Of a DNA stretch of 64,000 nucleotides, positions 51,627 through 63,471 are shown in pieces. The stretch is from Beroe forskalii. Its lineage: Eukaryota > Ctenophora > Nuda > Beroida > Beroidae. Each line of letters begins with the position of its first letter. Position 1 is the stretch's first letter. Both the position numbers and the translations under genes were made by a program. The stretch is taken from assembly GCA_011033025.1 (NCBI GenBank), contig WFMF01000147.1, positions 248,001 through 312,000 of the forward strand, given 5' to 3'. The notes under the pieces are model-generated. The model made no database searches. It was not told the origin of the DNA and saw only the letters and a list, made by a program, of their open reading frames with translations.

Positions 51627-51932
51627 CGGTGTACCAGAAGGATAAGTTATTGTACCTTTTTTTTTAAATAGAAATAACTTATCCTTCTGGTACAGGAGTG
51701 TGTCCCAAAAGGATAAGTTATTTTTATTTTTGAAAAAGAAAAAATAACTTATCCTTCTGGTACACGAGTGTGTCCCAAAAGGATAAGTTATTTTTTATTT
51801 TTGAAAAAGAAAAAATAACTTATCCTTCTGGTACACGAGTGTGTCCCAGAAGGATAAGTTATTTTTTATTTTTGAAAAAGAAAAAATAACTTATCCTTCT
51901 GGGACACGAGTGTGTCCCAGAAGGATAGCTTA
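51627..51932. repeat. Left palindrome array
   Basis: Tandem units of about 66-69 bases, each an inverted repeat AATAACTTATCC...GGATAAGTTATT joined by A/T-rich TTTTTGAAAAAG spacers. The centres alternate between GGTACACGAGTGTGTCCC and GGGACACGAGTGTGTCCC. Confidence 0.9.
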
Positions 51933-56740: not shown

Positions 56741-56966
56741 CAGATATTGAATTTAGTCATATGATCATATTGATCTGGTATTTTTTGTAGTATTTTGGTG
56801 GTCACGCTTCAATGGCATAATATTTCCGAAGGTTTTATTAGTAAGTGTCTAAGCGTGTAATAAGTACTTTTGATTTATTTATTTATTTATAGATATGTTT
56901 GAAGTGATTGATCATTGATGCAGTGAAACACAAATCTCAAAAATGATATCAAACCCACACACTATT

Positions 56967-57853
56967 TTTAATTTTGAAAAAGAAAAATAACTTATCCTTC
57001 TGGGACACGAGTGTGTCCCAGAAGGATAAGTTATTTTTAATTTTGAAAAGAAAATAACTTATCCTTCTGGGACATGAGGTGTCCCAGAAGGATAAGTTAT
57101 TTTATTTTACAATGTAGGCGTGTACTGTGTATGCACACATCTTTCTTTGGGGAAGCATGAAGCTGCACTGTGCAGGCGAGTCTGGCAGAAGTGTCATGCA
57201 CGGTGGCACACTTGTCAGGTGTTGCCTGACCCCCTTGCTTAACACATATATCCCTGTCTGGCTCGCATGTATGTGCACACACCTATGCAGGCTTAGGAAC
57301 TGACCCCTACTAGCAGAGTTGTGTTCCTGAGCCAAACACGCCTGCACAGTGCAGCTTCATGCTTCCCTAAAGAAAGATGTGTGCATACACAGTACACACC
57401 CCTACATTGTAAAATAAAAAAACTTGTCCTTCTGGGATATACACGTGTCTCGAAGGATAAGTTATTTTTATTTTTCAAAATTAAAAATAACTTATCCTTC
57501 TGGGACACACTGTGTCTCTAGAAGGATAATTTATTTTTTTTTCAAAATTAAAAAATAACTTATCCTTCTGGGACACACTGTGTACCGAAGGATAAGTTAT
57601 TTTTTCTTTTCAAAAAATAAAAAATAACTTATCCTTTTGGGACACACTGTGTAATAGAAGGATAAGTTATTTTTTCTTTCAAAAAATAAAAATAACTTAT
57701 CCTTTTGGGACACACTCGTGTACCAGAAGGATAAGTTATTTTTCTTTTCAAAATAGAAAATAACTTATCCTTTTGGGACACACTCGTGTACCAGAAGGAT
57801 AAGTTATTTCTATTTAAAAAAAAGGTACAATAACTTATCCTTCTGGTACACCG
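56967..57853. repeat. Right palindrome array with an internal larger palindrome
   Basis: Units are as on the left. Within it, 57104-57413 is a larger inverted repeat with arms of about 75 bases (ACAATGTAGGCGTGTACTGT and complement). Its loop carries TTGCTTAACACATATATCCC, shared with 47820 and, inverted, 51530. Confidence 0.85.
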
Positions 57854-59094: not shown

Positions 59095-59312
59095 CTTGTC
59101 AGAAGTTTCCATTAGTAGTGCGACGGATAGAAATTAAAACTTTAAAACCTAAAATAACAAGCTGATTTCTCTTGGATAGGTTCCCATCGGGTCCCTGAGT
59201 TCCAAAAATGTTAACGAAGATCTCAGCAGGGCAAATATTACTTTTTCCGATTTCCTCTCAGGTGCGTCAGTGCGTATGCGCAAATATGATATCTTCCAAT
59301 TTCCCAAGTTAC

Positions 59313-59428
59313 CTTTGGTTGGCTTCCGTTCTCTTGAGTTGGAACCACTGTTCAAAGGTGGTAGTCTTTAGGAACTTGGCATAGAGATCCTTCCAGTTTC
59401 CTTTCTGGCCCTTGAATTCCGCGCTGTT
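59313..59428 (-). CDS. DENND6: DENND6 exon
   Basis: The acceptor is AATTTGAACAG before 59428 and the donor is GTAACT after 59313. 38 codons plus two bases. It encodes KGNWKDLYAKFLKTTTFEQW, the counterpart of the KGNWKGLYRRFLKSPNFDIW motif that is characteristic of DENND6. Confidence 0.92.
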
Positions 59429-59588: not shown

Positions 59589-59745
59589 CTTAGTCTCCGA
59601 GACACTGGACAGGAAAGCGTCGTGTTGAAACTGGTGCAGCAGTGGAGGCTGCCTGTAGGGATTAATGCTCTTCTGGAGCGGCATCAGACTGCTGATGTAC
59701 TGCTCCAAAGGAATGATCAGTGAGTGGGTTAACTCGGTCAGGTAC
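59589..59745 (-). CDS. DENND6: DENND6 exon whose 5' end is tandemly repeated in the intron
   Basis: The acceptor is CCTTCTTCAG before 59745 and the donor is GTACCA after 59589. One base plus 52 codons. It encodes YLTELTHSLIIPLEQYISSL and MPLQKSINPYRQPPLLHQF, matching the vertebrate [30 protein letters not shown] region of the DENN module. DENND6A is a guanine exchange factor for Rab14 on recycling endosomes. The start of this exon, with its acceptor, is repeated about ten times further upstream on the gene strand. Only the copy at 59745 keeps the frame. Confidence 0.92.
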
Positions 59746-60190
59746 CTGAAGAAGGAATGATCAGTGAGTGGGTTAACTCGGTCAGGTACCTGAAGAATGA
59801 ATGATCAGTGAGTGGGTTAACTCGGTCAGGTACCTGAAGAATGAATGATCAGTGAGTGGGTTAACTCGGTCAGGTACCTGAAGAAGGAATGATCAGTGAG
59901 TGGGTTAACTCGGTCAGGTACCTGAAGAAGGAATGATCAGTGAGTGGGTTAACTCGGTCAGGTAGCTGAAGAAGGAATGGTCAGTGAGTGGGTTAACTCG
60001 GTCAGGTACCTGAAGAAGGAATGATCAGTGAGTGGGTTAACTCGGTCAGGTACCTGAAGAAGGAATGATCAGTGAGTGGGTTAACTCGGTCAGGTACCTG
60101 AAGAAGGAATGATCAGTGAGTGGGTTAACTCGGTCAGGTAGCTGAAGAAGGAATGATCAGTGAGTGGGTTAACTCGGTCAGGTAGCTGAA
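59710..60190. repeat. 44-bp minisatellite made of an exon boundary
   Basis: About eleven head-to-tail copies of a 44-base unit, starting at 59710, 59754, 59798 and so on at exact 44-base steps. Read on the gene strand each unit is CATTCCTTCTTCAG, then GTACCTGACCGAGTTAACCC, then ACTCACTGAT. Thus each holds a splice acceptor, the first 36 bases of the DENND6 exon, and a branch-point-like CTGAT. The outermost copy (about 60186) is preceded by a different pyrimidine tract (TTTTTCTTAAAATTCAG), likely the ancestral intron end. Confidence 0.9.
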
Positions 60191-60892
60191 TTTTAAGAAA
60201 AATCAGTCACACGTAATCAGAAAGTCAGAACACTATTTACATCCAGAACCTAACGACTGAGTGCAAAAGTTTGATGAATGGCGAGTCACTTAATTTTCGA
60301 GACACAATTCGGTTAAAAAGCAAAGTATGATGTGCCCGAGATGTACCTTCAGATGGGTCACAAAAAGGTCCTGTCAACTGTCAAGTTGTGCTTTGAGAAT
60401 CGTGTGTTATATTGGGATCTATTTCTCTACCTTCCTTGAAAATAAATTTCTCAGAACCAGTCGCCTCTGTCATTATTATTAAGCACCATCATTATAGCTG
60501 CATCAGATACAGTATTTGAGTATGTGCTAGGCTAATTGCTTGTCTGAGTCCTGCAATCTTAACATGTTATGAATAACCTGTTACATATTTTTCATATAAC
60601 ATTTAAAACTAGTAAAACAAGAGTCTCAGAGTGACCCTTCTTGACAATCGTATGTTATCTCAGAAACAGTAGCAAATATGACACCTTACGTCGACTATTG
60701 ACCGATGAAAACGTACAATGAAATGTTTCGAGCAATATTCCCCAGAGCAGCATTTATCAAGGCTGCTCGCGTCAGATGTTCAAGTTAGTTAACAGCATTC
60801 GTGCATTACAGACGCAAGCACTGAGCTCTCGATCCAAGTACTCCCATTTAACCTGAGTTTTATTTCTCTTTTGACGTTTTTGCATCTCAACT
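60191..60892. other. DENND6 intron and upstream region of the nested gene
   Basis: No exon was recognised. The region would contain the promoter of the gene starting at 60893; no clear TATA box was assigned. Confidence 0.4.
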
Positions 60893-62353
60893 ATGTTTCT
60901 CGTTTCATTCTTAGCGATTGTCTTTGCCGATTCTTTACACGAAGGTGCAATTAAGACATCACTGGACCCCATTCAATATGAACCGATAAATATACAGGAA
61001 CAACGAAAGGAATTGCAAGAAAAGGAAAATAAACTTCCTGAACATGAGCATCATGGAAAGCAAAAAGAACACCGTGAAGAGGAAAAGGATCATCATGGAC
61101 AGCAAATGGAACAGCATGAACAAGGAAATGTGCATCATGGAAAGCAAAAACACCAGCATGAAGAGGGGAAAGAGCAGCGAAGACTGGCGAAAAGGTCCCT
61201 CCTGCCTCCTTCGGTAAAGGAAGCGACCCAGTCTGCCCTAAGTGAAAATTACACGAAAATGAGACGGAATGCAACCATCGATGGTATTGAGGAGGGTGAA
61301 GTGATCATGGCGTTGAGTATGATTGGTGAGGTTGCCGACTGTATTAAGTACTGTGAGCAAGTGGAAGGGTGTCGGACTTTCACCTTTGATTCAGGAAATT
61401 GCTCACTCCTACGGTCAGAACATCATATGGCCCAAGGTTACGGCGGGGGTAGAATATATAACAAGAACACTGCAATTGGGGATAAGAATTATAAGAGATG
61501 TCTGCAATGTACGGACAGACTGGAAAGATTAGAGAAGAAACGAAAAAATAGAGTCCGATTAAAAAGGATGTGGATCGTGGACACAGATTCTGGTAGATGC
61601 CTGGGGTTAGATCCTGAGAAGAGAACAGAAAATACCAAATACTTGAGGTGGACTACTCAATGCTCCAATGCACTAACATGGGACATCAGGTTAAATTTTT
61701 TGACGAAGGATTATACAATAAGTAAATGGCAGAGAATACCGGTTATCATTACCAAACAAAACACATATTGGAAGTTTGATGTAATAGACGGTGAAACGGA
61801 TGATACATCGGAGAAGGCTTTTCGTGTTGGTTTGAAAGACCAAGGCGGAATCCAAGTAAACCAAATAACCAATCGTACTATAGTAATGATGAGAAAGGGG
61901 GGCTGTAAATTCACCATTGGGGTGTCGATGATTAAATGGATCATGTTTCCAATATTTACGGACAAAAACGTTTCTCAGAGATTTAAAGAAGTTTCATTTG
62001 TAAATCCGATAATCAACAGAACGTGTTCTTTGGACCAGTTCTCCGTTCCTAACGGCGAGGTTCTGAACCCTGGGAATTGGCCATTTTTCCTTCCCGGGTT
62101 TACTGTGACAGTTACCTGCTTCCCAGGATTCAGAGTACAATCAAATGAGTCAGCAACCTCGCAGCACATAACGTGTGCGGAGAACACCATTGCAGAGCCT
62201 TGCTTCAACTTCAATGAAACCAGACCTGATGACATGGGTCAGAGTCCTTTTACAGAAGTAGACAATCACACAAGCTACCAGGACAGTGGCATGTACACAA
62301 GGGTTTCTGATGGCAGCCTTATTCTACATCTATTGCTCTACTTCATGCTATAG
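60893..62353 (+). CDS. Secreted/surface protein with His-rich region, PAN/apple-like and CCP-like modules
   Basis: This is a single-exon ORF of 486 codons nested in a DENND6 intron on the opposite strand. The ATG at 60893 starts a signal peptide (MFLVSFLAIVFA). Residues 38-97 are charged and rich in His, Glu, Lys and Gln with HHGKQ/HHGQQ repeats. RRLAKR at 96-101 is a likely furin-type cleavage site. Residues 145-206 have the Cys spacing of a PAN/apple fold (ADCIKYCEQVEGCRTFTFD). Residues 225-350 include WIVDTDSGRCLGLD and WDIR, suggestive of a ricin-type trefoil. Residues 378-437 carry four Cys around VPNGEV and VTCFPGF, a CCP/sushi module. The last 14 residues are hydrophobic (SLILHLLLYFML), fitting a GPI-anchor signal. 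N-glycosylation sequons are frequent. Function is unknown; these modules mediate extracellular binding. The lack of introns could mean retrocopy origin. Confidence 0.8.
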   Translation: MFLVSFLAIVFADSLHEGAIKTSLDPIQYEPINIQEQRKELQEKENKLPEHEHHGKQKEHREEEKDHHGQQMEQHEQGNVHHGKQKHQHEEGKEQRRLAKRSLLPPSVKEATQSALSENYTKMRRNATIDGIEEGEVIMALSMIGEVADCIKYCEQVEGCRTFTFDSGNCSLLRSEHHMAQGYGGGRIYNKNTAIGDKNYKRCLQCTDRLERLEKKRKNRVRLKRMWIVDTDSGRCLGLDPEKRTENTKYLRWTTQCSNALTWDIRLNFLTKDYTISKWQRIPVIITKQNTYWKFDVIDGETDDTSEKAFRVGLKDQGGIQVNQITNRTIVMMRKGGCKFTIGVSMIKWIMFPIFTDKNVSQRFKEVSFVNPIINRTCSLDQFSVPNGEVLNPGNWPFFLPGFTVTVTCFPGFRVQSNESATSQHITCAENTIAEPCFNFNETRPDDMGQSPFTEVDNHTSYQDSGMYTRVSDGSLILHLLLYFML

Positions 62354-62560
62354 ATTTTCTTTTACATGATGGCGAACTAACATAATGGACCCTTACGGTA
62401 GTAATTCCTGAATTTTAAAATTCTAAAATAGTAAAACAACTTATATTTATTCATCTAATATTATATACAACAGTAGGAAGTGCCGAAATATTATCAGAAA
62501 TCATCCATGTGATCATGTCTCAGTATTTAGTGGGGACTGAAACAAATGAAATAGAGGTCT

Positions 62561-62566
62561 AATAAA
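62561..62566 (+). promoter_or_regulatory. Polyadenylation signal AATAAA
   Basis: AATAAA lies about 210 bases after the stop of the nested gene and is followed within 30 bases by a T-rich stretch (GAATCTTTGTTTC). It is a plausible 3' end for that transcript. Confidence 0.45.
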
Positions 62567-62956
62567 TTGAATCTTTGTTTCTTGCAAAGTATAGGTTAAT
62601 CGAATTCAAGAGTAAAAATTTTCAGAAGTGATATTTTTCGGGAATACTGAAATACGGCATTTGGATTTTTGTGATTGGTGATACTAATTGGTGATACTAA
62701 TTGCTTAATTGGTGAATAGCTTACATTTTCTTGCCTATAATATCTTAATATGCCCAAAATGGATCGGAATGAAAATGCTGCAAGATCGACCATACTACAG
62801 GCCTTTCTGCGGCTGTCATTATTTTAAATCCTTCTTTTAGCTGATAACATAATTCGTTGAATAGTGGTGCCAGTAGTGGTGCCGTGCAATTTATCAACCA
62901 CTACTCTTGAAGGATACATCCTTCCTGTACCTGCATATCACCGAACACTTAACACC

Positions 62957-63297
62957 ATACATTGAACAGTATACATTGTTCACTGTTCACTGTACAGTGT
63001 ACACCATACATTGAACAGTATACATTGTTCACTGTACACTGTACACCGTACACTGTACACTGTACACCGTACACTGTACACCGTACACTGTACACCGCAC
63101 ACTGTACACCGCACAGTGTACACCATACAATGAACAGTATACATTGTTCACTGTTCACTGTACACTGTAAACCGTACACTGTACACTGTACACTGTACAC
63201 TGTACACTGTTCACCGCACACTGCACACCGTACACTGTACACCGTACACTGTACACCGTACACTGTACACCGTACACTGTACACCGTACACTGTACA
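62957..63297. repeat. TGTACAC satellite with larger palindromic periodicity
   Basis: The core unit is 14 bases (CACCGTACACTGTA), with an interspersed longer unit holding CCATACATTGAACAGTATAC and TTGTTCACTG. The unit is rich in GTAC and TGTACA self-complementary steps, so both strands stay free of stops and give meaningless Cys/Val/Tyr/Thr-rich frames. It lies in a DENND6 intron, starting 16 bases from the donor of the 63314 exon. Confidence 0.9.
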
Positions 63298-63313
63298 TGC
63301 GTAGTTCCTCTAC

Positions 63314-63471
63314 CTGCGTATCATGATGTCCTCCACTTCTGGAGGCCTCCTCTTTTCTCCCCTCAGTAACTTCTTCACGTTCTTATCCCGCGAGAGGAAG
63401 GGTTTAAACTTCGTGTAGAACCCGGGTTTACCTCTCAGGGAGGAACTTGAGTGCTCCTTCGGGTTCATTAC
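63314..63471 (-). CDS. DENND6: DENND6 exon
   Basis: The acceptor is CTGACCCCAG before 63471 and the donor is GTAGAG after 63314. 52 codons plus two bases. It encodes SLRGKPGFYTKFKPFLSRDK and NVKKLLRGEKRRPPEVEDI, corresponding to [20 protein letters not shown] of DENND6A. It joins in phase to YLTELTHSL of the 59589-59745 exon across a 3.6-kb intron. Confidence 0.9.

Follow-up and report, generated by a model that had tools for sequence, protein, structure and literature searches.

A tandem array spanning an intron-exon boundary in a DENND6-like gene of the ctenophore Beroe forskalii

Tandem repeats that run across exon-intron boundaries have been described in the Adh3 and globin genes of lancelets and named mirages (PMC3087553), and TnC and PGBD5 have been added to these boundary-spanning cases (PMC3902484). 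The haplotypes of lancelet mirages differ in length. BflGb6, in which the 3' end of an intron and the 5' part of an exon are repeated, is reported with six units in one haplotype and three in another. The AG/GT signals of the repeats could serve as cryptic sites, and splicing is described as regular, as far as RT-PCR and the Adh3 data suggest (PMC3087553). In UBC and VCX3A, AGGT motifs within tandem arrays are used as both donor and acceptor (PMC10809524). Tandem duplication of AGGT has also been proposed as a route to intron gain, an idea credited to Rogers 1989 in PMC3087553, with potato RdRp as a described case (PMC4974935).

We analyzed 64,000 nt of the Beroe forskalii genome (contig WFMF01000147.1, positions 248,001 to 312,000; hereafter the window). 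TRF finds a tandem array at 59708-60190 with a period of 44, 11.0 copies and 98% matches. The array holds the intron-exon boundary of a coding gene inside its tandem unit, the exon start at 59745 being placed by frame and homology. Exon-like copies start at 60185, 60141 and so on to 59745, with a spacing of exactly 44. The features of the locus, numbered along the window, are as follows.

63314 to 63471, minus strand: coding exon before the array intron, placed by frame and homology, ending CGCAG|GTAGAG
59746 to 63313, minus strand: intron of 3568 nt, with the array as its 3' part
60186 to 60205, minus strand: acceptor 5' of copy 1 (TGATTTTTCTTAAAATTCAG), rank 41 of 310 AG sites
59746 to 60185, minus strand: copies 1 to 10 of the 44-nt repeat unit (n = 10), each with 38 exon-start bases plus CTTCAG
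59708 to 59745, minus strand: copy 11, the first 38 bases of the real exon (GTACCTG...CATTCCTT), acceptor AG|GT
59738 to 60101: 12-base palindromes TCAGGTACCTGA (n = 8), centred on the AG|GT of copies 3, 4, 5 and 7 to 11
59589 to 59745, minus strand: DENND6-like coding exon of 157 nt, placed by frame and homology, donor AAG|GTACCA
59428-59313, 59094-58987 and 58752-58620, minus strand: last three coding exons, placed by frame and homology, stop TAG

A preliminary description had proposed a minisatellite made of a splice acceptor and an exon start in a DENND6-like gene, and TRF, copy alignment, reading frames and homology all bear this out. It had also counted eleven 44-base copies, which stands, and assigned 36 bases of each to the exon, where the alignment gives 38.

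Six exons in the window, with edges inferred from frame, homology and AG/GT, encode 283 residues in an uninterrupted frame up to the stop codon. An approximate human DENND6A query was aligned by tblastn to the window and two adjoining contig stretches, where it matched the minus strand in ten collinear pieces (E 2.8e-19 to 0.029). In BLASTP against the same approximate sequence, 128 of 283 aligned positions in its C-terminal part were identical. Pfam returned a match to SPA only, below threshold (E 0.19), and a PDB search with the gene product matched no chain. By its sequence the gene looks like DENND6, a name that the collinearity backs for an approximate query.

The copies are nearly identical, with six single-base variants among 478 aligned bases (10 x 44 + 38). 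AG is present in all eleven. The first exon-like base is C in copies 1, 2 and 6 (AG|C) and G in the remaining eight (AG|GT), so that C for G at position 1 accounts for the variants of those three copies. Position 30 varies once, in copy 5, and one variant at position 36 is common to copies 8 and 9. The acceptor in front of copy 1 differs from that of the other copies (TTCTTAAAATTCAG), and we infer that it is the ancestral intron end. A 34-base core, searched with at most three mismatches, has 11 matches in the window, all inside the array, against an expectation of 0.00 (100 shuffles); the exact 24-mer GTACCTGACCGAGTTAACCCACTC, with G as first base, occurs at eight places in the 216-Mb assembly, which are the eight G copies. 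The low number of variants and their sharing between neighbors, in the pairs 1-2 and 8-9, are as predicted by local turnover. The position-1 variant of copy 6, however, matches copies 1 and 2 and not its own neighbors, and therefore turnover was not purely local. A repeat collapsed or expanded during assembly would be another explanation for the array, and a single haplotype is what the assembly shows: a search for a second allele found none, as only one of the 40 places scored, from 164 candidates in the assembly, matched over the full length. However, the copies carry distinct variants and both flanks are unlike the unit, and we consider an artefact highly improbable.

The structure belongs to a known kind, the mirages of lancelets. 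Like those of Adh3, BflGb6, BflGb9, TnC and PGBD5, the present array is a boundary-spanning tandem unit that adjoins an authentic exon, and its copies carry splice signals, as many lancelet mirages carry AG/GT signals. Its polarity, 3' intron end followed by 5' exon part, is that of BflGb6, and its 44-nt unit falls within the range reported for the Adh3 mirage, 10-72 bp. It differs in lying in a ctenophore genome, in having eleven copies and in devoting only about six bases of each unit to intron-like sequence. The copies of the PGBD5 mirage are described as imperfect, whereas those of the present array are nearly identical.

We therefore read the array as a tolerated, largely neutral mirage minisatellite of unstable length, with splicing mostly to its last copy at 59745; we give this reading a probability of a little under 0.8. 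A short stretch across the 3' splice site would have been duplicated in tandem, and copy number would then have risen by slippage or unequal exchange. Each duplicate would bring its own acceptor, so that an intact exon is always restored beside the exon body and surplus copies turn intronic; this is why a frame-shifting 44-nt repeat would be tolerable in a coding gene. Most transcripts would join the donor at 63313 to 59745, either directly or via re-splicing through AG|GT copies. Wrong products would carry a premature TGA and are expected to be degraded, leaving the array itself largely neutral and its length free to change. The AGGT-duplication model of intron gain is similar in that both splice signals come from a duplication across AG|GT, but the present intron is taken as pre-existing, its end probably lengthened by duplication.

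The cost of choosing a wrong acceptor is evident from the frames. Among the eleven direct acceptors, the full frame follows only from copy 11. A splice from 63313 to any of copies 1-10, without further splicing, leads to TGA after 16 whole codons. The preliminary description had noted that 44 is not divisible by three and that the next acceptor upstream gives a TGA after 16 codons; both points are confirmed, the second for all ten upstream acceptors. Its suggestion that each copy is a potential acceptor is plausible. Scored with approximate human matrices and ranked among the 310 AG sites in 58.5-64 kb, copy 1 reaches 0.88 (rank 41) and copies 2-11 reach 5.4-7.0 (ranks 2-7 and 10-13). By this score, the acceptor that duplication created is stronger than the presumed original one. 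Rank alone is no predictor of use, since two acceptors of the gene model, at 59428 (rank 119) and 59094 (rank 176), are ranked low on the same matrix. The last 14 intron bases of seven of the ten upstream copies are identical to those of copy 11, with one mismatch in two others, and copies 3, 4, 5, 7 and 8 equal copy 11 in score; simple scoring therefore gives no reason for the last copy to win. The exon-derived sequence had also been singled out as a branch point. This is at chance level, as 5607 of 10000 shuffled 38-mers have yTnAy 13-40 nt before the AG, and each repeat unit holds four yTnAy motifs.

The preliminary description had also suggested that the array could tune output, more copies meaning more wrong acceptors and premature stops, hence less DENND6, with array length setting expression. 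The TGA after 16 whole codons from every upstream acceptor and the tie of copies 3, 4, 5, 7 and 8 with copy 11 both fit such an effect. However, published mirages are reported, in PMC3087553 and PMC3902484, without interference in regular splicing, and re-splicing could erase the effect. We regard tuning as distinctly unlikely.

Re-splicing is conceivable because of what lies on the exon side of the junctions. An acceptor is juxtaposed with a donor, AG|GTACCT, in eight of the eleven copies, each of which reads CAG|GTACCT, and on an approximate human matrix this sequence scores 1.41 as a donor. The gene's five donors score 1.44 (upstream exon), -0.21 (array-bearing exon), 6.7, 4.4 and 2.5 by the same measure. 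The AG|GT copies are thus also potential donors, weak in sequence terms but scoring between the extremes of the gene's five donors. Two donors of the gene model begin with GTAC (GTACCA and GTACGA), and this donor class is therefore in use in the model.

A splice to an early copy would recreate a donor, CGCAG|GTACCT, that could be re-spliced onward until the last copy is reached. Such a self-correcting ratchet, which would make the mature mRNA independent of copy number, is possible but in our view doubtful. Besides the eight AG|GT copies, whose donor score is near that of the upstream exon and above that of the array-bearing exon, it draws support from the published dual use of AGGT sites, tandem arrays such as UBC and VCX3A included (PMC10809524), and from published recursive splicing (PMC8605326). 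Every productive multi-step path also yields one identical mRNA. When we combined acceptors with AG|GT donors of the array in every possible way, 3193 paths gave 239 distinct mRNAs, one of them productive and reached by 128 paths with the direct path counted, although path counts do not equal frequencies. With array introns of at least two units, 384 paths gave 114 mRNAs, again with one productive, via 25 paths. Re-splicing could thus either restore the normal mRNA or leave a nonsense one. The earlier view that the spliceosome has either to pick the copy next to the exon body or to produce nonsense transcripts is accordingly right about the TGA after a wrong acceptor, but these are not the sole alternatives, since some re-splicing paths end in the normal mRNA. 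Of the ten upstream copies, seven read AG|GT, and a wrong first splice to one of these could thus be repaired.

Several observations stand against the ratchet. The copy donor has no G at +5, and four of the gene's five donors outscore it, one of them by a narrow margin. Copies 1 and 2, which are transcribed before the others, start with C; these two and copy 6 have no GT, so that re-splicing at their own junctions cannot rescue them. Steps of 44 nt are short for animal introns, and only steps of at least two units are therefore likely.

The comparison with known dual-use sites is similarly mixed. As in UBC and VCX3A, the AGGT of each unit could act as donor or acceptor and units could be removed by splicing. 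UBC, however, has coding monomers with reported inter-unit splicing, whereas the present units are intronic and frame-shifting and their dual use is potential only. As at Drosophila ratchet points, the adjoining AG|GT would recreate a donor after the first splice (PMC8605326). The Drosophila points are described as spaced in long introns, for example two in an intron of about 50 kb, while here a 3.6-kb intron ends with eight AG|GT packed into 400 bases, and the donor is weak.

That the array forms a ladder of zero-length recursive splice sites, which repairs wrong AG|GT splices and so buffers the protein against copy-number change of a frame-shifting repeat, is an unlikely extension. If it were true, the C variants of copies 1, 2 and 6 would be broken rungs, and mirage arrays would persist by splicing themselves out and might exist well beyond lancelets. 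The array also offers a natural experiment on how one of several near-identical acceptors is selected by the spliceosome, and on whether AG|GT re-splicing can hide repeat expansion from the protein.

Donor-like exon starts occur elsewhere in the gene. AG|GTA is present at four of its six visible acceptors (63879, 63471, 59745 and 58752), so four exons begin with donor-like sequence. At 59745 the exon start scores 1.41 as a donor against -0.21 for the exon's own donor, and skipping of the exon via re-splicing could be favored unless suppressed.

We also considered whether RNA structure hides the decoy acceptors, the palindrome TCAGGTACCTGA pairing adjacent copies and burying their junctions. 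The whole array folds far outside 20 ordinary shuffles (z -10.65); ordinary shuffles destroy the repeats, and we therefore relied on arrays of shuffled units. Of 60 such tandem arrays, 59 fold less well than the real one, a palindrome of at least 12 bases appears in 31 of 5000 shuffled units, and the AG is less paired in a single-copy stretch (0.68). The pairing does not discriminate between copies, however. Junction pairing is 0.82 in copy 11 against 0.82-0.84 in the other G copies, pairing of the AG itself is 0.96-1.0 across the eleven copies, and the AG of copy 11 is paired like those of the remaining copies at four span limits. The C copies 1, 2 and 6, which re-splicing cannot rescue, are more open (0.68, 0.49 and 0.52). 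With copy 11 buried to the same degree as the other G copies and the C copies more open, structure does not favor the correct site, and we rejected folding as the selector of the correct acceptor. That structure hides the decoys at all seems very unlikely. A palindromic element (AACTTATCCTTCTGG...AGAAGGATAAGTT) is repeated in tandem elsewhere in the window, at 51672-51927, 56963-57103 and 57411-57851.

Tandem arrays are abundant in the parts of this genome that we sampled. The window and other genome stretches, with repeats of the window and mitochondrial pieces left out, hold 72 arrays of period at least 20, some of them overlapping, in 311,212 bases of 70 sequences. An acceptor-like AGGT motif is in the unit of five of the 72, the present array included. 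We examined one of the other four, which is located upstream of the first piece aligned by tblastn in the gene and not at an exon edge seen there, and hence no second mirage is shown. Judged by titles and abstract starts, we found no literature report of boundary-spanning arrays in ctenophores. The present array extends mirage repeats from lancelets to a ctenophore genome, which suggests that mirages may be what minisatellite growth generally produces in genes with introns, and not a lancelet oddity.

A mitochondrial contig of the assembly (13,339 b) encodes a divergent COX1 with in-frame TGA. Scanning five further ORFs gave COX3, two matches to Proton_antipo_M and two ORFs without a Pfam match. 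In the first 10 kb, eight ORFs of at least 90 residues all lie on one strand, and G+C is 0.14-0.24. ARAGORN, run with the bacterial setting on both pieces, found no tRNA. In-frame TGA in COX1, missing tRNAs, low G+C and one-strand ORFs are features given for ctenophores in PMC5924465, which also gives a size of about 10-11.6 kb for their mitochondrial DNA, a range that the 13.3-kb contig exceeds. Taken together, these features point to a ctenophore-like mitochondrial genome and speak against a lancelet host.

A 7-bp array (TACACTG, 46.6 copies) at 62972-63297 starts 16 bases past the donor of the array intron, and so tandem repeats lie at both ends of this 3568-nt intron. Within it, antisense to the gene, a plus-strand ORF of 486 residues at 60893-62353 matches PAN_1 (E 3e-5). 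In the last intron (58986-58753), the 10-nt AGGTACGAGG is present at both splice junctions; among 231 AG|GT pairs compared in 58.5-64 kb, with arrays left out, a match of at least 10 occurs in one, that of this intron. It is possibly a scar of intron birth by AGGT duplication, a post hoc reading that concerns one of five introns. The intron at 59312-59095 contains a stretch of about 153 bases (59142-59294) that recurs at 77-79% identity in at least 39 further genome places, from 40 scored of 164 candidates. Several copies form opposite-oriented pairs about 2.5-3 kb apart, and the stretch looks like a transposon terminal inverted repeat.
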